A DNA stretch of 64,000 bases from a virus, in IMG/VR virus record IMGVR_UViG_3300027969_003137, positions 1 through 64,000 of that record. The stretch is one strand, 5' to 3'. Position numbers and translations under genes: made by a program. Shown piece after piece: positions 3,942 to 27,819 of this stretch; position 1 is the stretch's first letter; each line of letters starts with the position of its first letter. The notes below the pieces were generated by a model that did no database searches, was not told the origin of the DNA, and was given only the letters and a program-made list of their open reading frames with translations.

Positions 3942-4751
3942 ATGACTAGACATAACACTGGATTTGTTTTAGATGAAAAACAATGGTTCTCTGATCAACG
4001 AATTCTTCATCTAAATCGGCACGACGACGAAACAAAGAAAAATATTCTAAGACTAGAACAAAAGTTTGGATCTACCTGTTTTACACCTCTGGATATTCCG
4101 ATCATTCAAGATAAAGCATTTTTCAATTGGTATTTTGAAAATGCCGTTCCTAGCGTAAAACAAAATAAAGATGTGGCAACAGGATATACAGGGGGCAGCA
4201 GCTTTCTTTCAATTGATTTGTTTCCCGACAGATACGACAGTTCGAAATCTATTTGGTCTAAAAATATTAGAAATGATTTAGAAAACTTGTGGCCCGACCT
4301 TTGGGAACAATTTTATCTACATCTGCCCTTTGAAAAAATTGAAGGCATGTCAATATGGTCTAGTACCAAAGATATTGTTCCGCATAGAGACCAAAGCGTT
4401 TTTGTTGATATTCCTTTGGAATTTAGAATTGTCATGGACGAAAACCCAGTTGATAATTTTTGGGTCACAGAAGTTTTACCAAATACAGCCATTGACACGA
4501 AATTAAATACTGCTGTCGTTTCAACAAAATTAGATACAAATAGTTTTGCCTGGAATAATCTCCGAACCCAGCATCATACTAAATTCTATCCAGACCATAA
4601 AAAACTCACATTCATATTTCATTGGGTGAACAAGATCAACTGGAAAAAATATGAAAGCCTTCTCGAACGAAGTTTAGAAAAATATCAAAAAAACCTGTTA
4701 GTTAGTACTCGACCAATTACTGATTTTGTTGAATCAACAACATTATCATGA
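3942..4751 (+). CDS. 2OG-Fe(II)/aspartyl hydroxylase-like protein
   Basis: 269 residues. The recognisable part is the second half: IVPHRDQ (HxD metal pair), a strand LEFRIVMD, FWVTEV, then SFAWNNLRTQHHTKF giving a distal His, and KLTFIFHW. This arrangement, with an Asn-Asn-x5-His pattern, fits the cupin-like aspartyl/asparaginyl hydroxylase group of 2OG oxygenases. The first 130 residues are not recognisable. No ribosome-binding site is visible, but a GTAAATA box lies 6 nt before the ATG. ATGA overlap with the next gene indicates translational coupling and a shared pathway. Substrate unknown. Confidence 0.6.
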   Translation: MTRHNTGFVLDEKQWFSDQRILHLNRHDDETKKNILRLEQKFGSTCFTPLDIPIIQDKAFFNWYFENAVPSVKQNKDVATGYTGGSSFLSIDLFPDRYDSSKSIWSKNIRNDLENLWPDLWEQFYLHLPFEKIEGMSIWSSTKDIVPHRDQSVFVDIPLEFRIVMDENPVDNFWVTEVLPNTAIDTKLNTAVVSTKLDTNSFAWNNLRTQHHTKFYPDHKKLTFIFHWVNKINWKKYESLLERSLEKYQKNLLVSTRPITDFVESTTLS

Positions 4752-5443
4752 GGACCCCAGAGCAAATAGAAAAAATCAAAAAGAATTTTTCTAATCCTAT
4801 AGAGATAAAAAATGTATTAACAGTTGAAGATATAAATCATTTGTTAAAAATCTATGAAGGTGCGGACAATCTAGTATACAAAAATACTGGCCCGATAACA
4901 TTAAACATAGAATCATATCTAGATGATCGTGTGATAAAACACTTACTATCTGTTATTCAACATCATATAGGCAAGTTTGAAATTACCGCTGGATTCTTTT
5001 TCCATACTACCTTTCCGCATATTATACACAACGATGATACTTTTGAATTGCCGGAAAATGTCTACAAGGCCATTACTATTCCGCTAAAACTCGAAACTGA
5101 AAAAATTAAACAATATCCTAAACTATGTTTTTTTGATCAATTCTACTTTCACGGCCCTGCTAAATTCTTTAAAGGTGATGATCATATAGACACGTATTAC
5201 AATGAACAGATATATGACTATACAAATGTAGACGGAATAACTGATAAAAAATTTATTGATAGAGAACGATTGTTTTCTCATTTAAAATCTAGATGGTTAG
5301 AAGGGCTTAGTCTACACTCCACACTAGATTGGGTACCTGGGAATATTATGATTTTTGACAGTCTAAGATTACATTGCGCCAGTGATTTTAGAAAATTAGG
5401 AATCCGATCTAAAACAGCCATGAGCATTTTTACAAAATTATGA
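4748..5443 (+). CDS. 2OG-Fe(II) oxygenase-like protein
   Basis: 231 residues. HNDD near residue 97 supplies the HxD motif after the FFFHTTFPHI strand; the C-terminus PGNIMIFDSLRLHCASDF supplies the distal His, and GIRSKTAMSIF the candidate 2-oxoglutarate-binding Arg. The spacing of about 110 residues between HxD and the distal His is longer than in small members, with an insert at residues 130-190. It overlaps its upstream neighbour by ATGA and the SGNH gene downstream by 4 nt, so the three genes are coupled. Substrate unknown. Confidence 0.65.
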   Translation: MRTPEQIEKIKKNFSNPIEIKNVLTVEDINHLLKIYEGADNLVYKNTGPITLNIESYLDDRVIKHLLSVIQHHIGKFEITAGFFFHTTFPHIIHNDDTFELPENVYKAITIPLKLETEKIKQYPKLCFFDQFYFHGPAKFFKGDDHIDTYYNEQIYDYTNVDGITDKKFIDRERLFSHLKSRWLEGLSLHSTLDWVPGNIMIFDSLRLHCASDFRKLGIRSKTAMSIFTKL

Positions 5444-6282
5444 ATATATACGTAAATGGTGATAGTTTTACTGCCGGTGCCGAATTAACAGATTGGGTCT
5501 TGCCGGGATTTCCCGGGTATGGTACAACTGGTCATCGCGATGGGTTTTGGGAAGTTCCAAAAGAAACAAAAGCATGGTATCGAACAAAACACTATGTTGC
5601 AAGTAAACATTTTGGAAGCATTGAGAATCAGGAGACAACTGAAAAAAATTTAGCATGGCCTGCTGAACTAGGCAAACTTGATCCTACTTTGTTTGTGTAC
5701 AACGGCAGTGCGGCCGGAGCATCAATGACTGGTATTACACATCGTACGGTTGCAGATTTACTAACTTTCAAAGCAAAAGACATTGCATTTGATCAAGTGT
5801 TTATACAACTAACTAGCTGTCACCGGTTTGAAATTTACGACTCAACTATGATTCAAAAAAAATTTATAATTGACAAACCATTTGGCTGGATCGATACTCT
5901 ACCAGGCAGGACTCAACAAGAATTAGGAAAATGCTATATAGCACAATATAAAAATGAAGATCTTGCTATAAAATTTTTATATAATTTATGTACACTAAAG
6001 CAAGCAGTGAAAGGATTAACTGGCCACAATCCAATAATCCTTTCAAGTTTATCGTTGTTTACAACCGCAGTAATAGACCCGTTAAAAAACAATCCAGATC
6101 CTCTTATACAACTATTACTTAAAGAATCTGGAATATTAGATATTCTTCCCGAGTACTGTATGGAAATTGTGCATAGAGATAATAATTTTTTGTATTGTCC
6201 AGGGATGCATTTTGAACATAGGACACATCAAGCATACGCTAAAATTATATATAATAAGTATATAAACTATGATACGCAATAA
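5440..6282 (+). CDS. SGNH/GDSL hydrolase-like protein
   Basis: 280 residues beginning MNIYVNGDSFTAG, the block I GDS nucleophile motif (Ser9) of SGNH hydrolases; NGSAAGASM (about residue 90) fits block II, IQLTSCHRFE block III, and CPGMHFEHRTHQAYA near the C-terminus is in place of the block V catalytic His. SGNH enzymes act as esterases, lipases or sugar O-acyl(de)acetylases; in phage islands they commonly modify polysaccharide. No signal peptide, so it is probably cytoplasmic. Coupled by overlap to 2OG genes on both sides (4 nt upstream, 14 nt downstream). Confidence 0.7.
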   Translation: MNIYVNGDSFTAGAELTDWVLPGFPGYGTTGHRDGFWEVPKETKAWYRTKHYVASKHFGSIENQETTEKNLAWPAELGKLDPTLFVYNGSAAGASMTGITHRTVADLLTFKAKDIAFDQVFIQLTSCHRFEIYDSTMIQKKFIIDKPFGWIDTLPGRTQQELGKCYIAQYKNEDLAIKFLYNLCTLKQAVKGLTGHNPIILSSLSLFTTAVIDPLKNNPDPLIQLLLKESGILDILPEYCMEIVHRDNNFLYCPGMHFEHRTHQAYAKIIYNKYINYDTQ

Positions 6283-6796
6283 ACACATCTATGAATTAGA
6301 CATCGATCTTGATATAGAGTATATCACGGATTTGGTTATGAAAAAACAAAATAAATCTGTTGCTGGTAGAGCTAAACATCATCGTATGGTACAGGAAGAT
6401 TCCTATATGTTATCTATAAAAAATCGGTATCCCTTGTTAAGTAATGTTTACAACATTTATCCAATGCCTGCGTATACAGAAATTCCGCTACATATTGATT
6501 CTAGCAGAAGCTGTGCATTTAATATTCCTATACAAGGGACAGAAGGTACTAGTACTGTCTTTTACGAAGCAGATGATCCGCTAATATTGGAATATGACAA
6601 CAAAAAAATATATAACTTAGTTAAATCTCCAGTTAAAGAAGTGTTTAGTAATACATTATTAAAACCTTTACTAATAAACAACACTACACCACATAAGGTT
6701 ATTAATAATAAGAACACAATGAGAATTACATTGAGTTGGAGTTTAATGGAAGGTTTTACTTTTAAACAAGCTATAGAGTGCTTTAATTTTAGATAA
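6269..6796 (+). CDS. 2OG-Fe(II) oxygenase-like protein
   Basis: 175 residues, compact. PLHIDSSRSCAFNIPIQG contains the HxD pair and the strand typical of aspartyl hydroxylase-like members; the distal His is in TPHKVIN and the Arg in TMRITLSW. All four expected catalytic residues (H, D, H, R) are present, so the protein is likely active. It is the last plus-strand gene of a four-gene overlapping run (3942-6796) and faces convergent minus-strand genes. Confidence 0.7.
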   Translation: MIRNKHIYELDIDLDIEYITDLVMKKQNKSVAGRAKHHRMVQEDSYMLSIKNRYPLLSNVYNIYPMPAYTEIPLHIDSSRSCAFNIPIQGTEGTSTVFYEADDPLILEYDNKKIYNLVKSPVKEVFSNTLLKPLLINNTTPHKVINNKNTMRITLSWSLMEGFTFKQAIECFNFR

Positions 6797-6803
6797 CATA
6801 CAC

Positions 6804-7508
6804 TCAGTGAGTGTGCTGTAAATTAGCAATAACTTTAGCTACACTTTTTGAAGTCATTGGCACATTTAAAATCAGATGTACACTATCGTTGACCCAACTG
6901 ATTGTTCTGTGAGTTTTTCTAGTGTTTACGTAATAGACACGGCCTGGCTCAATTTGTAATTTACGATCATCTATAAGCCAATCATAGTCTAACGGACCAC
7001 AGTTATTGACAAATACCACTAGTCGAAATACATCTCTAGTTATACTAGGATGGTCTCTATGTGGAACAAAGTATCCGCCTATGTCTGACTTTACAAAAAA
7101 TGTTCGGCCTACCTCTGAAAACGTATCAAATAACGGGCTTAGACTTCGACAGGCAGTATACACTTCCGTCTTATGATTAAATTCTAATTCACTCAGTCTG
7201 CGCCCGGCAGCATAACTAGCTTCAGCAAGACTGGGAGCATCCTTGTGAGTCTTTCCGGGCAAGGTAGTTAGAGTTAGCCCTTTACGATTATTTGGTCTAT
7301 CGGTTCTTGGCAAATAGTCTTGCCAATCTTCTCTAAATTGACTTAGCTCATGCATTAGCGCACCAGTATTTATTTTGATGTTAAGAGGCTCAAAGTCTCC
7401 TATAGTTAGGAGGCTAACTTCATTGGCCAACATTTCAGTATTAACTGTTGCCGGGTTGTGATGTGCTGATTGACCGCTTACTCCGGGGGGCACTTTGATA
7501 GATGTCAT
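6804..7508 (-). CDS. 2OG-Fe(II) oxygenase-like protein, Arg position altered
   Basis: 234 residues read from 7508. VPHRDHPSITRDVFRLVVF carries the HxD pair; RVYYVNTRKTHRTISWVN carries the distal His. The close layout match to the 165-aa protein at 15840 (YYADTRRQHTF...NRIHIVM) places Ser-Val-His where that one has Arg-Ile-His, so the usual 2-oxoglutarate-binding Arg appears to be missing, although an Arg could come from elsewhere. First of three minus-strand genes read towards it (9008 to 6804), the other two being PP-loop proteins; only 8 nt separate it from its upstream neighbour. Confidence 0.65.
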   Translation of the reverse strand: MTSIKVPPGVSGQSAHHNPATVNTEMLANEVSLLTIGDFEPLNIKINTGALMHELSQFREDWQDYLPRTDRPNNRKGLTLTTLPGKTHKDAPSLAEASYAAGRRLSELEFNHKTEVYTACRSLSPLFDTFSEVGRTFFVKSDIGGYFVPHRDHPSITRDVFRLVVFVNNCGPLDYDWLIDDRKLQIEPGRVYYVNTRKTHRTISWVNDSVHLILNVPMTSKSVAKVIANLQHTH

Positions 7509-7516
7509 ATAGTAAT

Positions 7517-8092
7517 TTATGCTGCGCCTGTATCTATTTTGTTCAATTGTGAAAAGGCCCAGGCACGTTCAGTACACTGCCAACATTGCCTACACCTTCC
7601 AATTTGTTGTTCTGTGCAAGAATGAGTAATATTGATCAGGTGTTCTTGCCCTTCACTGTACATAATTTGTACTATTTGATCCTTATACATATCAACAAAA
7701 GGGAATATAATTTTAGGATTGTCACTCTTTTTAGCTCGGTGCGGTGCTCCTGGAAGTTTACCCAATTCTGGGGGATTTTGATTTATAGCAACAAACAGTA
7801 TGTCAACTGGATGTTTACTAAAGATATCAGTAATAGCCACTCTGCTTTGTTGTCGGTGAAATACATTAGGATTACCAACAAGTATCGGTTGGGAGAGACT
7901 GGTAGAAAATATTTTATTATAATAATCAACAATAGGACCTGCATATAATGCTGCTCCGTCAAATTTAGGAATAGTAAACGGTTGTAGATTTATAGTAGGA
8001 TTATCTTTTAACAACAGATATAATAGTATTGCACTATCGAGTCCGCCGCTGAGCATTATTCCGTATTGTTTGCTATTATCTGTAGTAATCAT
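7517..8092 (-). CDS. QueC-like PP-loop ATP pyrophosphatase
   Basis: 191 residues read from 8092. The N-terminal LSGGLDSAILLYLLL is the PP-loop (residues 14-28) that binds and adenylates with ATP. The C-terminus has C-x8-C-x2-C-x2-C (SCTEQQIGRCRQCWQCTER), the same kind of zinc site and position as QueC, the 7-cyano-7-deazaguanine synthase. It is shorter than typical QueC (about 230 residues) and sits beside an asparagine-synthetase-like PP-loop gene rather than queDE, so it may use another acid as substrate. It overlaps its upstream partner by 17 nt. Confidence 0.6.
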   Translation of the reverse strand: MITTDNSKQYGIMLSGGLDSAILLYLLLKDNPTINLQPFTIPKFDGAALYAGPIVDYYNKIFSTSLSQPILVGNPNVFHRQQSRVAITDIFSKHPVDILFVAINQNPPELGKLPGAPHRAKKSDNPKIIFPFVDMYKDQIVQIMYSEGQEHLINITHSCTEQQIGRCRQCWQCTERAWAFSQLNKIDTGAA

Positions 8093-9008
8093 CAGGCATC
8101 ATATTTTTTAAAAATCGGTATATAGACATTGTCCATTTACTTGTATAATCTTTGTATTGATAAAGAAATTGATCATTTACTTGATCACACAGTGTTTGTA
8201 CAAATTCAGCGCCATTATATTTTGGCCTAATTTCAGCATCACTCCAATATTTTTGATAGACAAGATATTTAGAATGCCTAATAGTCGACTCTTCGTCGTC
8301 ACTGATAGTTTGTTTTATGATAGGATCCAACGCCATGGCTAACACTATTTCAGGAGTCTGTTGAAAGAAATTTATCGATCCAATTATCTTTTTGCCAACA
8401 GCGTATCTCATCCAAGCTAAGATGTATTCAAATTCTGTATAGGTCCAGATGTCGTTGATTTTTGAAGCATAAAAATCTCCGTTGCCTAATACAGGAATGC
8501 CATTCATCTCAAAATAAACTCGGTTAATTAAGTCCATGGTAGGCAACATTTCAGAATAGGGACATTTAGCGATCTCTGCCATTTCTAAGTAGTGTGGAGA
8601 CGACAGTGCGTTTTCTATATCTAGTTCAATGTACTTCACTTCTAAATTATATTTTTTAGAGAAGCGTTCTATTAATGTAATTTCGTGTTCGTTTAAATTG
8701 TTGGAAAATTTGTTGGACACAATTTTAAATGGCCTACCAGACTCTATAAAACTTCTGACTACTATTTCACTGTCAAGTCCGCCACTGAGTAATACTATAG
8801 GAACACGGCCAATAGACATTGCATAATCACTTATTTTTTCACAAACTTTGATACATTCATCTTTAAAAGAAGTTGGAACATATTGAGCACGTTTGTAGTT
8901 GCATTGAAATTGAGAGTCTGCAGATTCTCTAAAATTATAGATACTGTTGTCATAGCCATAGGAAAAGTTTTCATCTAGAGGATTTTGGAAATTTTTCATG
9001 GCATGCAT
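8076..9008 (-). CDS. asparagine-synthetase-like PP-loop protein (paralogue of 13253)
   Basis: 310 residues read from ATG 9008. An amphipathic VPTSFKDECIKVCEKISDYA helix leads into VLLSGGLDSEIVV (PP-loop, residues 75-80), as in the C-terminal synthetase domain of AsnB; there is no N-terminal glutaminase domain, so ammonia or another amine donor would be needed. EFEYILAWMRYAVGKK and SPEIVLAM-like segments in the second half match the same positions in the 310-aa protein at 13253, showing the two are paralogues of equal length. Probable role: ATP-dependent amide or thioester-like activation of a carboxylate. The next gene, a QueC-like protein, overlaps by 17 nt. Confidence 0.65.
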   Translation of the reverse strand: MHAMKNFQNPLDENFSYGYDNSIYNFRESADSQFQCNYKRAQYVPTSFKDECIKVCEKISDYAMSIGRVPIVLLSGGLDSEIVVRSFIESGRPFKIVSNKFSNNLNEHEITLIERFSKKYNLEVKYIELDIENALSSPHYLEMAEIAKCPYSEMLPTMDLINRVYFEMNGIPVLGNGDFYASKINDIWTYTEFEYILAWMRYAVGKKIIGSINFFQQTPEIVLAMALDPIIKQTISDDEESTIRHSKYLVYQKYWSDAEIRPKYNGAEFVQTLCDQVNDQFLYQYKDYTSKWTMSIYRFLKNMMPDDYYR

Positions 9009-9014
9009 TATAGG

Positions 9015-9021
9015 TTAAATA
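9015..9021 (+). promoter_or_regulatory. late-promoter-like box TTAAATA
   Basis: TTAAATA ends 6 nt before ATG 9028 of the GNAT-like gene. On the other strand TATTTAT at 9020-9026 gives ATAAATA 11 nt before ATG 9008, so this 19-nt gap may hold divergent late promoters. Confidence 0.4.
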
Positions 9022-9027
9022 TTTATT

Positions 9028-9630
9028 ATGAACGCTGACAACCTAAAAATTATCGATATTAAGAAAGAAATTTCAAACTATTCAACTCAATGGTCGGCCT
9101 GCATTGACTATCTTAAAATAAACTGTAAACAAGATGCATTATATCAAAATTACATCGATTTAAATTTAGATAATTTTTTAACATTCACTGCTGTGTTTTA
9201 TCAGGATGATATTATTTCATTTGGTGGAGTAGAAGTAAAGCAAGATCGATGGGGCAACGGTATAGCTAGAGCGTTAACAAGATTTTGGATTAGCCCTAAA
9301 CATCGCACACACGGATTAACCAAGTGGCGAAATGACTCTTTAAAACTAAGCCCGGTTGTTTTAAAAGCTCAGTTAGAATTTTTAAAAACTGTTGAGGACA
9401 TAAAGGCCGTGATCATTACAAGAGAAGGAAAATATCTAAAAAGTTTTAGAGAAATCATTAGATTGGCTAATACTGTGTCGGAACAGGAATTTCAAATACT
9501 GCCAGGAAAATATAACGTATGCGAGTGTATAGCAACTCCTCCCGAAAGTTGTAGACAATTTGTAGCGATCAACAATGTTGAAATGTTTAATCAATCAAGC
9601 AATTTAGGATTTTTTAAAAAGTATGAATAA
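9028..9630 (+). CDS. GNAT-like acyltransferase (weak)
   Basis: 200 residues. The middle, FLTFTAVFYQDDIISFGGVE then RALTRFWISPKHRTHGL, has the beta4-loop-alpha3 look of the GNAT fold (acetyl-CoA pyrophosphate loop, here KHRTHGLTK), followed by IKAVIITREG as beta5. The match is by pattern only. Two other proteins of this type (12693 and 14169) sit next to PP-loop genes, as this one does, which suggests an acyl transfer step associated with the PP-loop enzymes. It overlaps the following 2OG gene by 8 nt. Confidence 0.45.
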   Translation: MNADNLKIIDIKKEISNYSTQWSACIDYLKINCKQDALYQNYIDLNLDNFLTFTAVFYQDDIISFGGVEVKQDRWGNGIARALTRFWISPKHRTHGLTKWRNDSLKLSPVVLKAQLEFLKTVEDIKAVIITREGKYLKSFREIIRLANTVSEQEFQILPGKYNVCECIATPPESCRQFVAINNVEMFNQSSNLGFFKKYE

Positions 9631-10477
9631 ATTTTTTGTAAAAGATTGTCCCGAGGACATGACCATCTTTCAATGGATCAGCCTAACCATAAATTTCAAA
9701 GAAGCATATACCAACTTGACCTGTTCTGTGCCTATAGACAATTGGATTTCTATTCCTCATAGATTAAATATTGCATCACTAATTACAGATACTCAAGACT
9801 GCTTAGACAAAAACGGTATTAAGGGTTGGCAAACCAAAAAAGGAAATTCAAAGGCCTACGGTGGATTGAGTTTAGTTTACAATCCCAACTTAAAAGAAAA
9901 TACAAATCCCAATCAAAGTACATTAGGTACAACAACCAATGCTCCAGAGGAGTTCTATTGGGCCAGTACCAATCGTTTTGATTCGATAAAAAATACCTAT
10001 TTCGATACCTACGGATTTAGAAAACTATCCCCTGCTGTAGAAAATTCTAATTTAAAAAACTTTATCAACAGTTTTAGACTATCTCCTACTAGAGGTAGAA
10101 TAGGAGTGTTAGATGGAGATTATCAAGATCGAGTTAGTGAAGGATTTTTGTGGCATAAAGACGAACCAGTCTACGAAAACCTAAGACTTAATATACCATT
10201 AGTTGGTGACGAATCATTTATGTTTCAAACTGAAGGAAAAGATCCCATGCCTACTCCTGTGGGGAATATCTATACCTCGGACACGAGCATAGCACATCGA
10301 GTATATGCTACCAATAAGAGCTTGACAAAGCGCACACACCTTGTATTGGGTTTTAGTCCATGGCTAGATTACATTACTGAAGATGATAGTTATGTGGTAA
10401 ATGAATTCTTTGGTCGAGTACATCCAATAGATTTACTTTTTAAAGGGCTGGCGCATCCAGACATCGGCAATGAATAA
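9623..10477 (+). CDS. 2OG-Fe(II)/aspartyl hydroxylase-like protein
   Basis: 284 residues. EGFLWHKDEPVYENLRLNIP contains the HxD pair and following strand; TSIAHRVYATNKSLTKRTHL provides the distal His and Arg, and ends with the strand LVLGFSPW. All metal and co-substrate residues are present. The first 130 residues (LTCSVPIDNWISIPH...) are family-specific and unrecognised. Overlaps with both neighbours (8 nt each) form a three-gene plus-strand run GNAT-2OG-2OG at 9028-11162. Substrate unknown. Confidence 0.65.
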   Translation: MNKFFVKDCPEDMTIFQWISLTINFKEAYTNLTCSVPIDNWISIPHRLNIASLITDTQDCLDKNGIKGWQTKKGNSKAYGGLSLVYNPNLKENTNPNQSTLGTTTNAPEEFYWASTNRFDSIKNTYFDTYGFRKLSPAVENSNLKNFINSFRLSPTRGRIGVLDGDYQDRVSEGFLWHKDEPVYENLRLNIPLVGDESFMFQTEGKDPMPTPVGNIYTSDTSIAHRVYATNKSLTKRTHLVLGFSPWLDYITEDDSYVVNEFFGRVHPIDLLFKGLAHPDIGNE

Positions 10478-11162
10478 TATATTATGGATTCCGTTAGACC
10501 TCCCATTGCTGCCTAAAGAATTAACATTAGAAAAATTACAGGATCATTACACATTTGTTCCTAATATATGTGAGAAAGATCGAAGCGAGCTCGAAAGACA
10601 GAAAAAACATCATCTATATGCATGGAACAGTTTTCGCATACACGTACCATCTAAGGAACTAGCAAACCCCTACGAAGCACAAGTAGCTGATATTGATTGG
10701 CATTGGACTACTGAAGCACAGAATCTATGCCCTCAATTAATAGCCTATATCAAACAACATCTGCCATTTAAAAAATTTAAATATGTCACAGCTATCAGTT
10801 CAACTGGTGCTGTGCCATTACACCTAGATCTTACAGACAATCTTACTGAGGAAGAAAAGTTATTTTACAAAGATAACGATCCATGTTTTTATCGACTGTT
10901 ATTGGACGGCGAGATGCATAGAGATAGCTTTTATGTTTATACAAAATCTCTGGGCAAGATATATTGTACATTGCCCGACTCTAGCCCAGGATGGGCCATG
11001 GGCAGTTATAGTTGTGCCCACGGCAATGACGAAGCAGTGCCCAATCAAAAATTATTATTGTATGTTATGGGTGATCTAGATCTCGAAAAACATCAAGACT
11101 TAATCAACAGAAGCTGTAAGATTTACAAAGACTTTGCTGTGGTCAAGGAGTATGAGTTTTAA
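10470..11162 (+). CDS. 2OG-Fe(II) oxygenase-like protein
   Basis: 230 residues. TGAVPLHLDLTDNL gives the HxD pair, FYRLLLDGEMHRDSFYVYT a following strand, and GSYSCAHGNDEAVPNQKLLL the distal His. The position usually held by the 2-oxoglutarate-binding Arg is filled by Lys or is displaced (NQKLLLYVMG), so co-substrate binding may differ. It ends convergently with the desaturase gene, overlapping 20 nt at the 3' ends. Confidence 0.6.
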   Translation: MNNILWIPLDLPLLPKELTLEKLQDHYTFVPNICEKDRSELERQKKHHLYAWNSFRIHVPSKELANPYEAQVADIDWHWTTEAQNLCPQLIAYIKQHLPFKKFKYVTAISSTGAVPLHLDLTDNLTEEEKLFYKDNDPCFYRLLLDGEMHRDSFYVYTKSLGKIYCTLPDSSPGWAMGSYSCAHGNDEAVPNQKLLLYVMGDLDLEKHQDLINRSCKIYKDFAVVKEYEF

Positions 11163-11949: not shown

Positions 11950-11954
11950 ATGGG

Positions 11955-11961
11955 TATTTAT
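11955..11961 (-). promoter_or_regulatory. late-promoter box ATAAATA
   Basis: ATAAATA on the minus strand, preceded by G and followed by C, 5 nt before the desaturase ATG; spacing equals that from a T4 late box to its +1, so the start codon is the predicted first base. Confidence 0.55.
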
Positions 11962-11983
11962 CAACAGGTAAAATGCATATGGA

Positions 11984-16344: not shown

Positions 16345-16351
16345 TATTTAT
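16345..16351 (-). promoter_or_regulatory. late-promoter box ATAAATA
   Basis: ATAAATA on the minus strand 7 nt before ATG 16337, overlapping the end of the upstream methyltransferase gene. Confidence 0.45.
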
Positions 16352-20382: not shown

Positions 20383-20408
20383 GTGGGGGATTCGTCCCCC
20401 ACTCTTTG
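20383..20408 (+). terminator. intrinsic terminator after tctC
   Basis: GTGGGGGA / TCCCCCAC perfect 8-bp stem closed by TTCG (20383-20402), then a short CTCTTTGT tail; the T-run is weak, so termination may be partial. Confidence 0.7.
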
Positions 20409-20413
20409 TATCT

Positions 20414-21100: not shown

Positions 21101-21221
21101 GAGATTATTAAACAAATTCTGGATTTGGTCAACACGATATGAGTCTGATGTTGACTTTATGTTGCGCATGGAAAGAGAATATCAAAAATTAAGAGAGGAA
21201 AGACATGGAATTTCAAAATAA
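21084..21221 (+). CDS. small basic protein (45 aa)
   Basis: ATG 21084 to TAA 21221, overlapping the 3' end of the P-loop gene by 17 nt and the start of the 2OG gene by 17 nt. It fills the 104-nt gap between them. The product MLRIIKRLLNKFWIWSTRY... is amphipathic and basic at the N-terminus with a charged, possibly coiled, C-terminus (LRMEREYQKLREERHG). Overlap-coupled short genes are common here, but no homologue is known to me, so this is a tentative gene. Confidence 0.45.
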   Translation: MLRIIKRLLNKFWIWSTRYESDVDFMLRMEREYQKLREERHGISK

Positions 21222-21921
21222 ATCAGACTATCAAAGCAGTTGGGAATGGGCCAGGGCACACAGCAAATATCATTTTGACGACACCAAAAAAGATCAGTTA
21301 GGCGAATGGGTAAAACCGTTAGGCAGATTTGATGGAGACTGGTCAGCTGAAATGGCAGACGTGGTTGAGAAATCTAAGAACTGGACCGTGACATGGGCCA
21401 ATCGAAAGTTCTGGAGAAATGATGATTCTAAAGTTTCTGATATGCTTGAGCAGGAACACTACGATCTAAAAACTACAGGAGCACCTACTGACCTTGCAAT
21501 GTCCAATCGTTATGACTTTGTAGAAGAATATCCTACATTTAAAAAAATGTGCGATTATTTTGCCATGGAAGAAGAATATCATAAGCCTTGGGTGCATGTA
21601 CAGATACCCGGACAGATGTTCAATTTACATATAGATAAATTCTGGGACAAACTAAAAGACACAGATAAACCCGAGTCGATGTCGAGAATTGTGGTTATGT
21701 TAGACGACTGGCGTCCTGGACAGTTCTATCTGTACGGAACACATACATATAGTCATTGGCGAGCTGGCGACATACATGTATTCGATTGGCCGAATGTGCC
21801 CCATGCAACTGCTAACGCCAGTAGATTTCCAAGGCCTACGTTAGTTATCACCGGGTTAAATTCTGCTAGGACTAACGAACTATTGCAAAATTCAAACGAA
21901 ACCACAGTGCATAAAATATAA
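21205..21921 (+). CDS. aspartyl/asparaginyl hydroxylase-like 2OG oxygenase
   Basis: 238 residues, with a GAGAGGA ribosome-binding site. QMFNLHIDKFWDKLKD provides HxD; DIHVFDWPNVPHATANASRF provides the distal His, and SRFPRPTLVITG the Arg. The intervening SRIVVMLDDWRPGQFYLYGT is the strand-loop seen in the family. All catalytic residues are present. It lies in the left half of the duplicated cassette; the right half has an amidohydrolase in the corresponding interval instead. Confidence 0.7.
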   Translation: MEFQNKSDYQSSWEWARAHSKYHFDDTKKDQLGEWVKPLGRFDGDWSAEMADVVEKSKNWTVTWANRKFWRNDDSKVSDMLEQEHYDLKTTGAPTDLAMSNRYDFVEEYPTFKKMCDYFAMEEEYHKPWVHVQIPGQMFNLHIDKFWDKLKDTDKPESMSRIVVMLDDWRPGQFYLYGTHTYSHWRAGDIHVFDWPNVPHATANASRFPRPTLVITGLNSARTNELLQNSNETTVHKI

Positions 21922-21933
21922 GATATATAAAGC

Positions 21934-22491
21934 ATGGAACAAAAAAATTACATAGCAGAATATTTTACAAACTCTACAGATCCAACTAAAGAAGGATATT
22001 GGAGACCAAGATACCTCGACGGCAACCAAGAATCCCTAAAAGAATACGACGATATTGTGGCCGAAATTAAAGATGACGACATTGTAATAGATGTAGGCTG
22101 CGGCTATCACCCATTTAAGGGTCGTATTAAAAATCTAATAGGCATAGACAAATATAATCCCACTGCCGATGTAGTTGTCGATCTCTTAGACTATAATGCT
22201 CCAGAAAATCATTTTGACGTTGTTATTTCATTAGGTGCTACCAATTTAGATTCCTTTGAATTAATTTCACAGCAAATTGAAAGACTAGTCTATTGGTGTA
22301 AGCCGGGAGGTAAAATCTACATGCGAGTTAATCCTGTTTTAGAAGAAGTTGTATCTCCTAAAAAGCATGTTTGCAAATGGACCATAGATCACATTGCTGA
22401 ATATACTAGAAAACACAATTTAGAAATTATAAAACCAGTACGATTAACCAACGGCTTACGATACATATTCACATGGCAAAAGCAAAAGTAA
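21934..22491 (+). CDS. SAM-methyltransferase-like protein, single domain
   Basis: 185 residues. VIDVGCGYHPFK (motif I) with GIDKYNPTAD, LGATNL and GGKIYMRVNP are shared one-to-one with both domains of the 440-aa fusion at 16348, so this is the single-domain version. Start ATG 21934 lies 12 nt after the 2OG gene. The last 19 nt overlap the following gene. Substrate unknown; class I methyltransferase fold is inferred from motifs I and the acidic beta2 end. Confidence 0.75.
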   Translation: MEQKNYIAEYFTNSTDPTKEGYWRPRYLDGNQESLKEYDDIVAEIKDDDIVIDVGCGYHPFKGRIKNLIGIDKYNPTADVVVDLLDYNAPENHFDVVISLGATNLDSFELISQQIERLVYWCKPGGKIYMRVNPVLEEVVSPKKHVCKWTIDHIAEYTRKHNLEIIKPVRLTNGLRYIFTWQKQK

Positions 22492-23207
22492 AAAGAATTT
22501 TTATCAGCGGAACCGCTGGTAGTCTGTGGAGCGGCGTTGATAAATACTTAAGGTATGCACTGTTAGGATTTGTAGACAATTCCGACATCAATGAATATCG
22601 TAATCAAGAAGGCCATCTTGGTGCTTACTGGAATCCCGGTAACGAACCTAGTTGGGACTGGATATTGAACTTTGCCGACTATGATCGAGATCACATAATA
22701 GAAACACTAGACAGTGCATATTCAAACCCAATACCCGATGCCAGCGAAAAAGAATTCATCATACGAACACACAAAAGCCATTTCTGGGCCTTGCATTATG
22801 ACAAGCTAGTTGATCTATTCCCCGACGACGATATTTTAATTTGTCGTACCCCACACCATAAAGCCTGGATATGGTGGCAAATCTGTGGCGGGCATAATAC
22901 TGAATTTAACGATTACAAATATTACAACAGAGACTACGAAGCTATTTGGCAAGAGATAGGTCTGCAACTTTCCTACACTGACAAATTTATTGAAAAACAT
23001 CAATTAGAAAAAGAACTATGGAACCGAAGTTTTATTGAAAAACATTTTATCAAAACTCCGCATCCTTTTCTTGATCGTAGAATCGAAGAGTTCATTAGGC
23101 ACCCAGAAAAAATTGATAGTCTGGCGGGGAGAGGCCAAGGGACACATCTAACAAACGAGACTAGAGTGATAGTGAAATTAGGCAATTATAGGCCATTTGA
23201 AAAATGA
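22473..23207 (+). CDS. sulfotransferase-like protein (copy B1)
   Basis: 244 residues. AKVKRIFISGTAGSLWSGVD carries the P-loop-like start and EFIIRTHKSHFWALHYDKL with ILICRTPHHKAWIWWQICGG match the RTHK and arginine-rich segments of sulfotransferases that bind PAPS. It is paralogous over its full length to the protein at 26510, and 125 nt at 22680-22804 are identical to 26717-26841. It overlaps its neighbours (19 nt upstream, 4 nt downstream). Confidence 0.6.
   Translation: MAKAKVKRIFISGTAGSLWSGVDKYLRYALLGFVDNSDINEYRNQEGHLGAYWNPGNEPSWDWILNFADYDRDHIIETLDSAYSNPIPDASEKEFIIRTHKSHFWALHYDKLVDLFPDDDILICRTPHHKAWIWWQICGGHNTEFNDYKYYNRDYEAIWQEIGLQLSYTDKFIEKHQLEKELWNRSFIEKHFIKTPHPFLDRRIEEFIRHPEKIDSLAGRGQGTHLTNETRVIVKLGNYRPFEK
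22680..22804 (+). repeat. direct repeat, copy 1 (125 nt)
   Basis: Read base by base, 125 nt here are identical to 26717-26841 (4037 nt downstream), inside the two copies of the sulfotransferase-like gene; flanks diverge quickly. It starts TATGATCGAGATC and ends CATTATGACAA. Confidence 0.9.
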
Positions 23208-23773
23208 GAATAAATTATTGGGTAGGATTGCCCCATTCTCTATATGTAGCACGAGACATATTAAAACAATGTCCAGACGTTAATACTCCAGTGCTACCTG
23301 TGTATAAACCGTTATACTGGGTTCATCATCTTATATTGGACGATACTAGCATAGTTAAATATGTTACTGACATATGGGAAACTGACAACAAAAAAGAATT
23401 CAATTTTGGATCAGATAACTTGGAAGACAATCAGAGCAACCCTCTCTTTACTCCTTTTATGGAAAAATTTCCATCAGGATCTAGATTTTGGTTTTTTAGA
23501 TTTAAAGATATAGCAGACTACGCAGACGCATACGACGATGCTCAAACTGATCCATTAATTAGAGATTGGGTAGTTGAAACGAAAAAGAAAATTCCAGGAT
23601 GGAAAAATTTAAGTCGTCAAGAAATTTTTAACAGGTTATATACACGTCTAGATAAAGTTGCTAGTATGGTCGGAGCAGATCCTAAATGGCGGGAATTTGA
23701 TCTATCCGTATATATGGACAATAAAATGCAACTAGAAACAAATTTAGAATATCGACTTTATTCTAAGCCTTGA
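23204..23773 (+). CDS. hypothetical protein (copy C1)
   Basis: 189 residues, starting MRINYWVGL with an ATGA overlap. Paralogous along its whole length to the 192-aa protein at 27241: shared INTPILP/VNTPVLP near residue 25, GSRFWFFRFKDI/GSRFWFFKLKTV at 95-110 and C-terminal YRLYTKP/YRLYSKP. No motif I recognise; the pairing with gene B in both cassette halves suggests a complex or a shared substrate. Its 3' end overlaps the convergent gene at 23758 by 16 nt. Confidence 0.75.
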   Translation: MRINYWVGLPHSLYVARDILKQCPDVNTPVLPVYKPLYWVHHLILDDTSIVKYVTDIWETDNKKEFNFGSDNLEDNQSNPLFTPFMEKFPSGSRFWFFRFKDIADYADAYDDAQTDPLIRDWVVETKKKIPGWKNLSRQEIFNRLYTRLDKVASMVGADPKWREFDLSVYMDNKMQLETNLEYRLYSKP

Positions 23774-24327
23774 CCTAGAATTGTATACATATGCGGACCT
23801 GGCTCTGTTTTGATCCTTACTGGCGATAACTCTATAGTTGGATTCAATGCCATGGATGTCCACAGATTATCTGCAATATGGTCTACACAAAAAGTTGATA
23901 CTTTTGCATCAATTGCATTTTTAATTGCTAATTCTTCAGGAATATTGGTATTCCAGTGCGAATGTGTAAATGCGGCATCAATGGCGCCAAACGCTGGATT
24001 TTCTTTTACAATGATAAACGATGCGCTATCACAATATTGAGCATATATCTGCTCAATAAACATTGAAATACGATATCCATAAAATATAACAACATCAAAC
24101 TCTAGCCCTGATACTTCTATAAAGTCGTTTACATGAAAATCTAATTCTTCAAATGTTGAATCATGATATCTTGCCACTCTAGATGTTGGAATATTGTTGT
24201 TGTGATTGTTTGCAAACTGTTTTAAAAATACGGTTTTTCCGGATTGATGATAAGCAGCTTCTAATGCATTGATTAGAAAATTTCGTGTACCCGAATTACC
24301 GGCTGTAAAAATGTATTTTGTAGGCAT
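23758..24327 (-). CDS. P-loop-like hypothetical protein
   Basis: Read from ATG 24327, which has GGAG ribosome-binding and an ATAAATA box 26 nt upstream; a longer ORF to 24372 lacks such signals. The 189-residue product begins MPTKYIFTAGNSGTRNFLIN, where AGNSGTRNF resembles the P-loop of sulfotransferases, as in the A-type genes beside it; SFIIVKENPAFGAIDAAFTH follows. No family is clear. It is the only minus-strand gene in 20.4-33.7 kb and separates the two cassette halves. Confidence 0.6.
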   Translation of the reverse strand: MPTKYIFTAGNSGTRNFLINALEAAYHQSGKTVFLKQFANNHNNNIPTSRVARYHDSTFEELDFHVNDFIEVSGLEFDVVIFYGYRISMFIEQIYAQYCDSASFIIVKENPAFGAIDAAFTHSHWNTNIPEELAIKNAIDAKVSTFCVDHIADNLWTSMALNPTIELSPVRIKTEPGPHMYTILGQGLE

Positions 24328-24353
24328 AAAAGTCTCCGTGGATCTTGTATCAT

Positions 24354-24360
24354 TATTTAT
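24354..24360 (-). promoter_or_regulatory. late-promoter box ATAAATA
   Basis: ATAAATA on the minus strand, 26 nt before ATG 24327, with a GGAG ribosome-binding site between. Confidence 0.5.
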
Positions 24361-24380
24361 CCACGCAAACATAAACGAAC

Positions 24381-24387
24381 TTAAATA
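24381..24387 (+). promoter_or_regulatory. late-promoter-like box TTAAATA
   Basis: TTAAATA ends 8 nt before ATG 24396 of P-loop gene A2; divergent to the box at 24354. Confidence 0.4.
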
Positions 24388-24395
24388 GTACTATT

Positions 24396-25082
24396 ATGCA
24401 ATCTCAAAAACAACTTCTAATAACCTGTGGACCGCAAGGTTCTGGGAATCATATATTTGCTAGAATCTTTAGTATGCATCCAGATGTCAATGGATGGGAC
24501 GAACTTACGGAAAACTATTGGGTAGGTCATCAACGAGAAAAATTTGCAATGTATTGGTGGTACCCCCAATTAATGAAACCAGAAGTTTTCGATGACGGAC
24601 AATACTTTATTACAAACGTCAGTTATCCATATGTATTTGATGGATATAATATTAAACCAAAAATTTTAGAAGTTGCAAATATAGCCAAGAGCTGGGGCAT
24701 CGATGTACAGATCGCTGTAATTGCTCGAGATGAAAAAATATCTAGATTACAACAAGAACGGATAAGAAAAAAACCCACAATAGATTATGCTAAAGATTAT
24801 ATTATCAATACGTTGTTGGCTAGTGATTTTCCTGTAAACTTTATAAGTCTAGAAACATTTTTTTGTTATAAAACTAACTATCTAAAATATTTAGAAAAAA
24901 CTTTAAATTTTCCAATAGATCATACCAGCCCAGAAATTTTAAAATTCATCGACGATCAGAGCCCAAATGAAAAATATATAATTCCTGCTGAACCCTATCC
25001 TGGTGAGGAACTAAAAGGAGTAGAGGGCGAAGAGATCGATGAATTGTTTAGCCCCATGTCTAAAGGAAACAAAGATGATTAA
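24396..25082 (+). CDS. P-loop protein, sulfotransferase/kinase-like (copy A2)
   Basis: 228 residues, the same length as copy A1 at 20414. LLITCGPQGSGNHIFARIFS (P-loop), WDELTENYWVGHQREKFA and LIKRD-like IAVIARDEKISRLQQERI match A1 positions. The C-terminus is acidic (EGEEIDELFSPMSKGNKDD), where A1 ends NNPYKHHAKNN. First gene of the right cassette half; the stop overlaps the next start (ATG 25075). Confidence 0.6.
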   Translation: MQSQKQLLITCGPQGSGNHIFARIFSMHPDVNGWDELTENYWVGHQREKFAMYWWYPQLMKPEVFDDGQYFITNVSYPYVFDGYNIKPKILEVANIAKSWGIDVQIAVIARDEKISRLQQERIRKKPTIDYAKDYIINTLLASDFPVNFISLETFFCYKTNYLKYLEKTLNFPIDHTSPEILKFIDDQSPNEKYIIPAEPYPGEELKGVEGEEIDELFSPMSKGNKDD

Positions 25083-25593
25083 TTCAAATAAGATATATTT
25101 TATAACTTCACCGTTAGGACAATATAATGTCTGGTGTTTGGACAAGCTCAAAACACTGTTTCATTACGATGATAATAATAAGATTTATTTTAGATTCGGC
25201 TCGTTATCAAGACTAGACCTAGAACTGATGTACGATCACTATGATCGAATATCATTGATCATCAACGATCAAATTTCCAATTTTCATAATACAAACTTTT
25301 TTTATTATGGTTGGGAAATTTTGCCGTGTTTAGATGAACTCTACAGAGATTTTCCGGGGTCTGAATTTTTATTAGTCGTTAATAATTTAGATGATGATTC
25401 ATTTCAACTTGCAGCAAACAAAAAAAAGGGCAAGTTAAAAGATCCTGCATTTGTAGCTGCTGCCGAAGCAAATCAAAAGACAGCAATTAAAAATTTCATC
25501 AAGGGTAAAATTTACACAGATCGAGTTCGAGAGAGAAAATCTGAAAATGGGGCTGTTGAAAGATCTATTACTACCTACTATTTAAAAAATTAA
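25075..25593 (+). CDS. hypothetical protein
   Basis: 172 residues when started at ATG 25075, which lies inside the end of the preceding gene (8-nt overlap); an AAAGGAAACAAAG ribosome-binding site precedes it. MINSNKIYFITSPLGQYNVW followed by charged, Tyr/Phe-rich sequence; a basic segment KKKGKLKDPAFV at about 115. No recognised motif; no counterpart in the left cassette half. Its position between a P-loop transferase and an amidohydrolase implies a pathway role. Confidence 0.6.
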   Translation: MINSNKIYFITSPLGQYNVWCLDKLKTLFHYDDNNKIYFRFGSLSRLDLELMYDHYDRISLIINDQISNFHNTNFFYYGWEILPCLDELYRDFPGSEFLLVVNNLDDDSFQLAANKKKGKLKDPAFVAAAEANQKTAIKNFIKGKIYTDRVRERKSENGAVERSITTYYLKN

Positions 25594-25594
25594 T

Positions 25595-26500
25595 ATGTAT
25601 CAAGACAAACTAATAGATGCCATGGCTCAAATTTATTTTAATATTAAAGATGAAGTATTTGAATCATATCTCGAAAGTTCTGGAATAGATTATATTGCAA
25701 TATCAGCTGGCATACCCGGCGGAAAAGATTGTTCGTTAAGATTAAAACAAAAATTCAACAGTAGAATACTGTTAGGAACTAGTAAACGATTTGACCAACG
25801 GGATGACTTTGATCCTCAATACATCAACACAATTATACAAGAACTCAAAGACCCGTCCTATCGATATATAGGCGAGTTGCATTTTACTCATGCCGACAAA
25901 GAAGATGGCGAAATAAATGATGAACTTGAAAGGCGTGTTAGTGCAGTATCGCCTAATACTAAAAAATTATTAGATCATATTTCTGCATATCAAGTACCTG
26001 TTTTTTTTCATTGGGAAGTGTTTCATTGGGAAAGAGATTGGCCAGAGATTAGTAAAATGTTAAAGTCTTATCCTAATTTAAAATTTGTTTGGCCGCACTG
26101 CGGGTTTGCTACCGTTGACCAAATAGATAAAGTACTATCAGAACATCCAAATGTTTATGCTACACTAAGTAAACGAGAATTAAAAAGATGGAAGAACTTG
26201 TGGATAGGACCCGATAATACAGATCTTGGGGGGTTTCAGATAGTTAATTCCGAATGGTGGGATAAAGTAGATAGTAATTCTATAGTAGACGACCATAACA
26301 AGATTAGACAAGAATGGGTCACACTAATTGATAAATTTCAAGATCGATTTTTATTTGCCACTGATGCCCATAAAACTTTAAGATGGAACAGCTACAACAA
26401 TATTGTGTTATGTTGGAGAAACATTCTTGGACAACTAGATGCAGATTTAGCCAAAAAAATATCCTATACCAATGCTGCAAAGCTATATAAGATATCATAA
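25595..26500 (+). CDS. amidohydrolase-2-like (TIM-barrel) metal-dependent hydrolase
   Basis: 301 residues. YQVPVFFHWEVFHWERDWPE gives a His-Trp-Glu strand, LKFVWPHCGFATVDQIDKVL the metal-binding His on a barrel strand, and RFLFATDAHKTLRWNSYNNI the catalytic Asp near the C-terminus with NAAKLYKI as the usual last helix. Pattern of amidohydrolase family 2 (decarboxylases, lactonases, amidases). Substrate unknown. Sits in the right cassette half exactly between A2 and B2, opposite the 2OG and methyltransferase genes of the left half. Confidence 0.7.
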   Translation: MYQDKLIDAMAQIYFNIKDEVFESYLESSGIDYIAISAGIPGGKDCSLRLKQKFNSRILLGTSKRFDQRDDFDPQYINTIIQELKDPSYRYIGELHFTHADKEDGEINDELERRVSAVSPNTKKLLDHISAYQVPVFFHWEVFHWERDWPEISKMLKSYPNLKFVWPHCGFATVDQIDKVLSEHPNVYATLSKRELKRWKNLWIGPDNTDLGGFQIVNSEWWDKVDSNSIVDDHNKIRQEWVTLIDKFQDRFLFATDAHKTLRWNSYNNIVLCWRNILGQLDADLAKKISYTNAAKLYKIS

Positions 26501-26509
26501 AGGAATAGC

Positions 26510-27244
26510 GTGACAAAGGCCAAAGTAAAAAGAATATTTGTGTGCGGTCCTCCGGGAGGCATGTTCTCAACCATAGATCGATACCTGCGTGTGGGATTGC
26601 TTCAACATGTTGACAATTCTGATATAACGCCCCAGAGATTCTGGGGCGGACATATTGGTGCTTACTGGCACCCGGGCAACGAACCTAGTTGGGACTGGAT
26701 ATTAAACTTCGGCGAATATGATCGAGATCACATAATAGAAACACTAGACAGTGCATATTCAAACCCAATACCCGATGCCAGCGAAAAAGAATTCATCATA
26801 CGAACACACAAAAGCCATTTCTGGGCCTTGCATTATGACAAAATTATAGAGTTATTTCCCGAAGCAGACATAATTACAACAATTATAGAACCGCATGTTG
26901 CTTTTATATGGTGGGAACTATGTGGTGGCCACGACACTGTACATAATAATTACAAATTTTTTCATAGGAACTATGAGGCTATCTGGCAAGAAATAAATGT
27001 ACAAACTACGGCAACAAAGAAATTTGTTGAAAAATATAATATTACTCCTGTCTATTATGATATGGATTTTCTTACAAAAAATTATGGGACTATGTCTATA
27101 CATTTAAAAAGAATGGCAGCAGAAGGCATGCGCCATCCGGGCGGATACAATCATTTTTTAGGGGGAATGGCAGATGGTACAGGGTTGAGCGATAATGTGA
27201 AAGTTGCCTTTAAACCGGGATGTCCTAGACAGTTTAATCTATGA
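26510..27244 (+). CDS. sulfotransferase-like protein (copy B2)
   Basis: GTG start at 26510 (AAAGGAAT upstream), 244 residues, equal in length to copy B1. TKAKVKRIFVCGPPGGMFST is P-loop-like; EFIIRTHKSHFWALHYDKI is identical in both copies over 125 nt of DNA; TIIEPHVAFIWWELCGGH replaces CRTPHHKAWIWWQICGG. The second half diverges most (VYYDMDFLTKNYGTMS), suggesting different acceptors. ATGA overlap with C2. Confidence 0.6.
   Translation: MTKAKVKRIFVCGPPGGMFSTIDRYLRVGLLQHVDNSDITPQRFWGGHIGAYWHPGNEPSWDWILNFGEYDRDHIIETLDSAYSNPIPDASEKEFIIRTHKSHFWALHYDKIIELFPEADIITTIIEPHVAFIWWELCGGHDTVHNNYKFFHRNYEAIWQEINVQTTATKKFVEKYNITPVYYDMDFLTKNYGTMSIHLKRMAAEGMRHPGGYNHFLGGMADGTGLSDNVKVAFKPGCPRQFNL
26717..26841 (+). 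repeat. direct repeat, copy 2 (125 nt)
   Basis: Identical to 22680-22804; see copy 1. Confidence 0.9.
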
Positions 27245-27819
27245 GAATGAATTATTGGTTAGGCGGTGGGTACACTGCCCATATTCCTCGTGAAATCTTA
27301 GAAAAAAATGATAATACTATCAATACACCTATATTACCAACAGTTAGTCATCATTCTAGATTTGAATGGATATACAAATATATAGGCGAAAAGAAATCTG
27401 TAATTCCTGCATTAAAATTGATGTTTTATACTACTGATAAAGAAGAGTATAATCTCGGTACACATAGTCTTAATCTAGATGACGGTGATTTCTTTTTTAA
27501 ATATTGTCTACCTCATACTCCGCCTGGATCTAGATTTTGGTTTTTTAAATTGAAAACTGTTAAGTTATATTTAGAAGAATACGAAGACTCTCTAAAGAAT
27601 GTCACAATGACCGATTGGATGGAAGTTAAACGATTAGAAAATCCAAAATTAGCAACTGCCTCTAGAGAGAGGATGGCTGAGCTTATGCTCGAAAGATTGG
27701 ACAAAGTTGCTGATAGATACGGTGCTGGTGAGTGGAAACCGTTTACTCCCAATGACTATTTCGATAATGGGGATCTAAGTGAAACTCCCTTGTTATATCG
27801 ATTGTATACAAAACCTTAA
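27241..27819 (+). CDS. hypothetical protein (copy C2)
   Basis: 192 residues starting MRMNYWLGGG inside an ATGA overlap with B2. Paralogue of C1 at 23204 throughout, with the conserved GSRFWFF core and RLYTKP end. It closes the duplicated cassette. The gap that follows (27820-27879) holds a promoter for the tRNA-like gene. Confidence 0.75.
   Translation: MRMNYWLGGGYTAHIPREILEKNDNTINTPILPTVSHHSRFEWIYKYIGEKKSVIPALKLMFYTTDKEEYNLGTHSLNLDDGDFFFKYCLPHTPPGSRFWFFKLKTVKLYLEEYEDSLKNVTMTDWMEVKRLENPKLATASRERMAELMLERLDKVADRYGAGEWKPFTPNDYFDNGDLSETPLLYRLYTKP

Follow-up and report, generated by a model that had tools for sequence, protein, structure and literature searches.

The stretch of DNA analysed here (the window) covers positions 1 to 64,000 of the 87,518-bp phage record IMGVR_UViG_3300027969_003137 (label G000) from IMG/VR, and the analysis concerns an accessory island at positions 3942 to 27819. 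A core of genes from this island recurs in divergent IMG/VR phages: two copies of the PP-loop ligase-like family PP310 (8076 and 13253), the GNAT-fold transferase GNAT200, a membrane desaturase, the second GNAT-like protein GN12693, and PP390, a PP-loop protein placed by its fold in the class of asparagine synthetase B (AsnB) and beta-lactam synthetase. The co-occurrence of the island's core genes exceeds chance, and in related islands PP390 commonly stands next to a gene for a periplasmic receptor of the TctC type. We see an even chance that the left two thirds of the island (approximately 3.9 – 20.4 kb) are a phage-borne module for carboxylate uptake, amide formation and product tailoring.

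The contigs are metagenomic, and the thresholds, iterative hidden Markov models and 10-kb neighbourhoods were of the analyst's choice. Searches retained only candidates with matching peptide patterns, and the counts given below are samples, not prevalences. A preliminary description of the window had taken the whole 24 kb for a functional set and not for unrelated accessory genes. Co-occurrence of the families in other phages, set beforehand as the test of that claim, was found for the core under three independent anchors: GNAT200, PP390 and the 2-oxoglutarate (2OG) oxygenase 2OG284. The claim therefore holds for the core and not for the entire island, of which approximately 20.4 – 27.8 kb lie outside the recurrent part. 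The PP390 anchor yielded 191 viral loci, of which 78 were kept, 48 remained after dereplication at 90% and 39 were at least 15 kb long. GNAT200 yielded 18 loci, which together with the window and after removal of duplicates gave 15 unique ones; these contain a desaturase (14 loci), PP310 (13), PP390 (11), a second GNAT (9) and a 2OG family (13), and a homologue of GN12693 adjoins PP310 in 9 of the 15. Most of the 13 viral loci found with 2OG284 have PP-loop proteins or a desaturase nearby. In the 39 PP390 loci, PP310 was present in 25, the desaturase in 15, a PF03060 flavoprotein in 18 and a radical SAM protein in 11. A typical order is GN12693, PP310 and desaturase, followed by the divergently oriented genes for GNAT200, PP310 and PP390 (L047/L048, L052, L053). 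Gene order is shuffled between loci, and the recurrence is thus not merely collinear inheritance. A biosynthetic module is supported by the overlapping gene sets recovered with the three anchors, and also by the low background in INPHARED, where 3 of 50,697 records match the desaturase of the window and none matches PP310, PP390 or 2OG284.

PP390 has no sequence match in Pfam, NCBIfam, PHROG or PDB. Its structural model is of moderate quality (predicted local distance difference test, pLDDT, 75), and the nearest folds retrieved with Foldseek are carbapenam, beta-lactam and asparagine synthetases (1q19, 1mbz and 1ct9). The motif SGGxD[S/T], which begins near residue 78, is retained in 106 of 113 members. 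Only 3 of the 113 possess Cys2, hence no glutaminase site is present; the lack of a glutaminase domain suggests that the nitrogen donor of PP390 is not glutamine but an amine substrate or free ammonia. The four PP-loop proteins of the preliminary description are all retained, those at 7517, 8076 and 13253 by the QueC profile, that at 14675 by the SGGxDS motif and fold only. A weak similarity of the protein at 8076 to QatC was dismissed (17.8 bits versus a cut-off of 280 bits).

Two transport-related genes, the best clue to a mechanism, had been overlooked before, namely the TctA gene (17845 – 19308), by far the strongest Pfam match of the island, and the gene for a signal-peptide protein at 19320 – 20375. 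The G+C content of the TctA gene is 0.43, versus 0.36 for the island. A TctC-type receptor gene lies near PP390 in 22 of the 39 dereplicated loci. Among the 30 TctC genes of these loci, 21 are located within 40 bp of a PP-loop gene (PP390 in 20 of the 21 cases), many of them overlapping it; 18 share the strand of the PP-loop gene, and 29 of the 30 encode a signal-peptide-like N-terminus. PF03401 scores above the cut-off in other phage islands, with an E-value of 6e-12 for one TctC representative. In locus L082 a TctC-like gene, TctA (E 7e-139) and PP390 follow each other in a row; the receptor of this locus has no Pfam match and was assigned to the TctC family by an iterated profile. No TctC homologue of the type seen in PP390 loci was found among the 50,697 annotated phage records, and in the phage literature tctA was encountered only as a domain match in SUP05 phages. 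The pairing of receptor and ligase genes supports a reading of uptake plus amidation. In the related phage genome G001 (L001:714-2674), an outer-membrane porin gene (PF13609, E 1e-40) directly precedes a TctC-like gene, and the porin resembles those of Burkholderiales, in a plasmid collection that is biased. Burkholderiales are rich in orphan TctC receptors which share few permeases (PMC5994714). The host of this phage group probably belongs to the Burkholderiales, and the phage receptors would feed a TctA of host or phage. Binding proteins of the DctP family (tripartite ATP-independent periplasmic, TRAP, transporters) were observed in 10 of the 39 PP390 loci (e.g. L085:5609-6550, L076:6840-7772, L048:17243-18199). 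Several of them start at the apparent first strand of the mature protein, without an evident signal peptide, which suggests cytosolic carriers.

Gene content, conservation, co-occurrence, the pairing of receptor and ligase genes and the fold class are observed; we infer the order of steps, the substrate, the product and the purpose of the pathway as follows. A TctC-type periplasmic protein would capture a carboxylic acid, which would be imported via the TctA of phage or host. PP390 and PP310 would activate the carboxylate with ATP and link it to an amine; the GNATs would attach acyl groups, the membrane desaturase would introduce a double bond, and 2OG oxygenases of the PF05118 type and others would hydroxylate the product. 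The latter, formed during infection, may be a small molecule or aminolipid that contains an amide linkage and is acylated and hydroxylated, and its most plausible purpose would be defence against competing phages through a change in the envelope or cell state of the host. The fold class of PP390, GNAT200 and the SCD1-like desaturase together argue for an acylated amide product. Several observations weigh against such a pathway. The Foldseek matches of PP390 are modest (best E 3e-4, TM 0.37). The desaturase is missing from 24 of the 39 PP390 loci, and PP390 often stands in neighbourhoods that lack desaturase or GNAT200, so that there may be several products. The signal-peptide protein at 19320 scores weakly with the TctC profile (E 0.15), no TctB match was obtained among the scanned island genes, where the gap behind TctA is just 11 nt, and the island revealed neither an exporter nor a carrier protein. 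Binding proteins of the TctC family may also act in sensing (PMC5994714).

The desaturase of the preliminary description is confirmed at 11143 by a match to PF00487. It is closest in the PDB to SCD1 (4zyo/4ymk, E about 1e-25 to 3e-25), and three His boxes and an NxxxH motif are conserved in four divergent members, which indicates an acyl chain as one substrate. A desaturase match in Acinetobacter phage MD-2021a was discarded, as its context looks chromosomal. An SCD1-like enzyme would also suit a remodelling of host lipids, in which desaturase, PF05118 oxygenases, a fatty-acid hydroxylase and GNATs alter aminolipids of the host while the ligases supply an amide head group. The PF05118 family includes LpxO and OlsC, the FA_hydroxylase family occurs in 7 of the 39 PP390 loci, and a ketoacyl synthase in L023; freshwater pelagimyophages carry fabF together with a stearoyl-CoA desaturase (PMC7029224). 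GNAT200, however, has no sequence relation to the known lipid N-acyltransferase families in Pfam, and the desaturase is missing from most PP390 loci; we consider lipid remodelling unlikely.

The nine 2OG-oxygenase-like proteins that had been counted in the island each keep HxD and a distal His in their homologues, and the count of eleven in the window is completed by those at 477 and 83. In the Pfam family search PF05118 rose above the cut-off for the protein at 15840 only; the other 2OG proteins have no Pfam match, and keep HxD...H, mostly with the subsequent Arg, across homologues. H178-D180...H225...R237 of 2OG284 is conserved in 16 members. The triads of the 2OG proteins, the His boxes of the desaturase and the PP motifs are intact and, together with purifying selection (see below), support the module. 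PF05118 enzymes are able to act on Asp/Asn of proteins. Oxygenases, ligases and GNATs could accordingly modify the tail fibre of the phage itself, a host surface protein or a polysaccharide, and not a free small molecule. The island abuts the fibre-like gene at 2191 in this phage group, a cousin cluster in phage Mosig (see below) adjoins tail fibres, and the 2OG284 homologue of Achromobacter stands with a YcaO/nitroreductase protein near flagellar genes. Nevertheless, a modification of protein or glycan appears rather improbable: the island is without a glycosyltransferase, a membrane desaturase of the acyl-CoA type and a periplasmic receptor for carboxylates are hard to reconcile with it, and the core occurs in L050 and L045 without a recognised tail-fibre gene alongside.

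In cells, 2OG284 was detected in only a single GTDB contig, given the sensitivity of that search, in 2 of 43 Achromobacter and in 1 of 399 Burkholderiales genomes. In Achromobacter it stands beside a nitroreductase-YcaO protein and what is probably an ATP-grasp protein (recognised by eye; no Pfam match), with flagellar genes nearby. In L025 and L030, both from Achromobacter, genes for the nitroreductase-YcaO fusion, 2OG284, the ATP-grasp-like protein and a TPR protein are inserted by the flagellar operon, and L025 contains a very large YD-repeat (Rhs-like) protein alongside. PP390 and GNAT200 were found in none of 399 Burkholderiales and none of 398 Pseudomonadota genomes, while the same profiles match phage records (positive control); the module is thus mainly viral within the collections searched.

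Three GNATs had been named in the preliminary description. The one at 9028 is borne out by AlphaFold2 and Foldseek; those at 12693 and 14169, for which Pfam and NCBIfam are blank, are unconfirmed. The top Foldseek match of GNAT200 is Mom (8bv8), which brings up a modification of nucleic acids, with GNAT200 acting like Mom of phage Mu and the QueC-like protein feeding a 7-deazaguanine pathway for phage DNA or tRNA. The QueC-like gene at 7517 and a thymidylate synthase gene just past the island are in line with this. Against it, the Foldseek scores of other GNATs are within a factor of two of Mom, the QueC-like gene is missing from most loci, the island yielded no further deazapurine gene (FolE, QueD, QueE and transglycosylase gave no match in the Pfam scans), and membrane desaturase and periplasmic receptor do not fit. 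A Mom-like DNA modification by GNAT200 was rejected on an hhalign probability of 7.6% and a single motif of 17 residues (17 columns). Nucleic-acid modification is very improbable.

In the whole-genome relative G001 (86,275 bp), the majority of the island genes between 3942 and 14633 have collinear counterparts with 45 – 87% identity, and so has 15840; the outer part of its island differs. Island contents are shuffled among G000, G001, L010 and L087 on a conserved flank. The ratio of non-synonymous to synonymous changes (pN/pS) is 0.10 – 0.35 in the main core genes and 0.46 – 0.48 for 14169 and 15840, compared to 0.14 for DNA polymerase. Synonymous divergence (dS) from G001 is at or near saturation, and the pN/pS values are in the range of backbone genes, from which it follows that the core genes are maintained by selection. 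Unrelated accessory genes might nonetheless collect in a hypervariable pool and each act alone, for instance on 2-oxoglutarate/nitrogen status or carbon uptake. From one relative to the next the islands vary and their genes are shuffled, the G+C content is 0.361 in the island versus 0.413 in the backbone, and metaviromic islands beside tail fibres are a known precedent (PMC3909814). Such a pool does not account well for the co-occurrence of the core under three anchors, the adjacency of receptor and ligase or the strong purifying selection, and is distinctly unlikely.

Table 1. Genes of the island and its left neighbour (positions in the window)
Feature	Position	Strand	Remarks
Tail-fibre-like protein	2191..3903	+	Always borders the island on the left in this phage group; homologue in equivalent position in G001, L010, L087; related to fibre/baseplate-connector protein 48455-50944 (52% over 67 aa)
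OG3942, 2OG-oxygenase-like	3942..4751	+	69% to G001; H148-D150 and distal His conserved
OG4748, 2OG-oxygenase-like	4748..5443	+	58% to L087; H94-D96...H209 conserved
SGNH-hydrolase-like, GDS motif only	5440..6282	+	No Pfam/NCBIfam match
OG6269, 2OG-oxygenase-like	6269..6796	+	H75-D77...H142...R152 conserved; homologue in L020
OG6804, PF05118-like 2OG oxygenase	6804..7508	-	74% to L087, 68% to G001; triad conserved; 34% to Pelagibacter phage protein Mosig_00081
QueC-like PP-loop protein, C-terminal Cys cluster	7517..8092	-	PF06508 E 1e-9, above cut-off; phrog_1550 E 7.5e-15; 49% to L087
PP310, PP-loop ligase-like (core)	8076..9008	-	SGGxDS; PF06508 E 6e-5, barely above cut-off
GNAT200, GNAT-fold transferase (core)	9028..9630	+	AlphaFold2 pLDDT 86; Foldseek to GNATs, prob 1.00
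2OG284, Asp/Asn beta-hydroxylase-like 2OG oxygenase	9623..10477	+	80% to G001; 13 viral loci
OG10470, 2OG-oxygenase-like	10470..11162	+	72% to G001; H118-D120 and distal His conserved
Membrane acyl-CoA-desaturase-like enzyme (core)	11143..11964	-	PF00487 E 5e-12
OG11995, 2OG-oxygenase-like	11995..12717	+	82% to G001; H148-D150...H205...R218 conserved
GN12693, second GNAT-like protein (core)	12693..13256	-	81% to G001; GNAT only via family relation across loci
PP310, second copy, PP-loop ligase-like (core)	13253..14185	-	62% to G001; SGGIDS; QueC E 2e-5, barely above cut-off
Weak GNAT-like protein	14169..14633	-	Weakly related to the GN12693 family; 45% to G001
PP390, AsnB/beta-lactam-synthetase-class PP-loop ligase (core)	14675..15859	+	Class by Foldseek; 191 viral loci
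Asp_Arg_Hydrox PF05118 2OG oxygenase	15840..16337	-	E 7e-7, above cut-off; triad conserved
Tandem class I methyltransferase	16348..17670	-	PF13489 matched in two stretches, E 1e-12
TctA, tripartite tricarboxylate transporter permease	17845..19308	+	PF01970 E 4e-85
Probable diverged periplasmic solute-binding partner of TctA	19320..20375	+	Signal peptide; 11 nt after TctA
Cassette A, two copies	20414, 24396		37% identity between copies; halo
OG21205 (2OG)	21205		Halo (20414..27819)
Methyltransferase-like	21934		Halo
Cassette B, two copies	22473, 26510		57% identity between copies; halo
Cassette C, two copies	23204, 27241		33% identity between copies; halo
Small ORFs	23758, 25039		Halo
Amidohydrolase	25595		Amidohydro_2 (PF04909) E 2e-13; halo

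The coordinates of the open reading frames (ORFs) and their same-strand overlaps of 4 – 20 nt were reproduced (Table 1), and so were the amidohydrolase and the two methyltransferase-like proteins of the preliminary description, that at 21934 with a weaker match. The label of SGNH hydrolase for the protein at 5440 remained unconfirmed. The segment from 20.4 to 27.8 kb is a less conserved halo, unsupported as a member of the core. Duplication of the A/B/C cassette is real. Its earlier label as sulfotransferase-like or 'P-loop transferase' found no confirmation; for cassette A the profile comparison with phage sulfotransferase-like proteins gave a probability of 16%, the PDB search was without a sensible match, and the sulfotransferase reading was dropped. 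A homologue of cassette A (41% identity, GPQGSGNH P-loop) was noticed at L023:11056-11673 beside an RpiB-like protein and a relative of 2OG284. The search of viral contigs returned no match for cassette B, and an amidohydrolase of L048 was rejected as a relative of the one at 25595 (no BLAST similarity). The record is confirmed as a tailed phage by DNA polymerase, clamp loader, and tail-fibre and baseplate-related proteins. The island is flanked by a conserved phosphoesterase and the fibre-like gene (1483 – 3903) on the left and by a ThyX gene at 28763 on the right; tRNA-Gly(gcc) and tRNA-Arg(tct) are located just upstream, at 1078 – 1230.

Further enzymes were observed in the related islands. 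The PF03060 flavoprotein of the 18 PP390 loci is nitronate-monooxygenase-like (L073:6726-7658 and relatives) and could resemble either FabK or nitronate monooxygenase. Rieske-domain proteins recur beside PP310/PP390 (L043:8722-9582, L044:3115-3951, L048:11470-12312, L053:11392-12234), and some islands add an ATP-grasp ligase and aminotransferase-like proteins (L014:10846-12087, L014:19617-20672, L053:18261-19166), i.e. further amide chemistry.

In a wider and more tentative proposal, which is possible without being probable, phages of aquatic bacteria would carry a dedicated, phage-specific natural-product pathway composed of a TctC and PP390 pair for uptake and amidation and a tailoring core of PP310, GNAT, desaturase and 2OG oxygenases, with PP390 as a large phage family missing from public family libraries. 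If this is true, many phages run a multi-step biosynthesis of their own, as opposed to the usual view of accessory genes as single boosters of host metabolism. Each TctC gene abutting PP390 would predict that the ligand of the receptor is the substrate of the ligase. The core ligase families are absent, as ligases, from Pfam, PHROGs and NCBIfam, and the cousin cluster of the cultured phage Mosig opens part of the question to experiment.

No publication on this combination of core genes or on the pairing of receptor and ligase was found among the papers searched; the nearest known systems each share part of it. The host recognition cluster of T4-like pelagimyophages and cyanomyophages is, like the island with its adjoining fibre-like gene, large, variable, adjacent to tail fibres and equipped with accessory metabolic genes. 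Its place is between VrlC and the neck gene gp14, neither of which was located in G000. Freshwater pelagimyophages carry a 2OG oxygenase in this cluster besides the fabF and desaturase genes mentioned above; glycosyltransferases are the conspicuous genes of pelagimyophage islands, and freshwater members are reported to be without substrate transport and radical SAM genes (PMC7029224). The island differs from them in PP-loop ligases paired with TctC receptors. The cluster of cyanophages S-SSM6a and P-SSM2, predicted to make a secondary metabolite, is likewise a phage-borne multi-enzyme set with several 2OG oxygenases; its core consists of carbamoyltransferases, a halogenase, a HemK-like methylase and HAD phosphatases, with PP-loop proteins and desaturase unmentioned (PMC7824862). 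None of these core families was found in the island, where the Pfam scans gave no carbamoyltransferase, halogenase or HemK-like methylase. The cultured Pelagibacter phage Mosig EXVC030M (MT647606.1) shares a desaturase, two PF05118 oxygenases (one related to OG6804) and a GNAT beside tail fibres (Mosig_00072-00096). Its cluster also holds TauD, radical SAM and aminotransferase genes and, unlike the island, a carbamoyltransferase and nitroreductases, but no PP310, PP390 or confident GNAT200. The biosynthetic cluster of Mosig (L056, MT647606.1 41699-78304) spans approximately 17 kb and is unmentioned in the genome announcement. Carbapenam and beta-lactam synthetase and AsnB appear to be the closest folds to PP390, with amide synthesis by a PP-loop; PP390 differs from AsnB in lacking the N-terminal glutaminase (Ntn) domain and Cys2, and PDB searches revealed no sequence relation. 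A TctA permease and TctC-type receptors, often orphan, are known from the TctABC systems and Bug receptors of beta-proteobacteria (PMC5994714), whereas the genes here are phage-encoded and placed beside a PP-loop ligase, with no TctB found. The SagB/YcaO-2OG284-ATP-grasp operon of Achromobacter, the only cellular home of 2OG284 found, also combines this oxygenase with enzymes of amide chemistry; it is rare, and no PP310, GNAT200 or desaturase was recognised in it. The core and the pairing are best placed as a so far undescribed variant among the tail-fibre-adjacent islands of T4-like phages, and there is a real chance that they form a distinct system.

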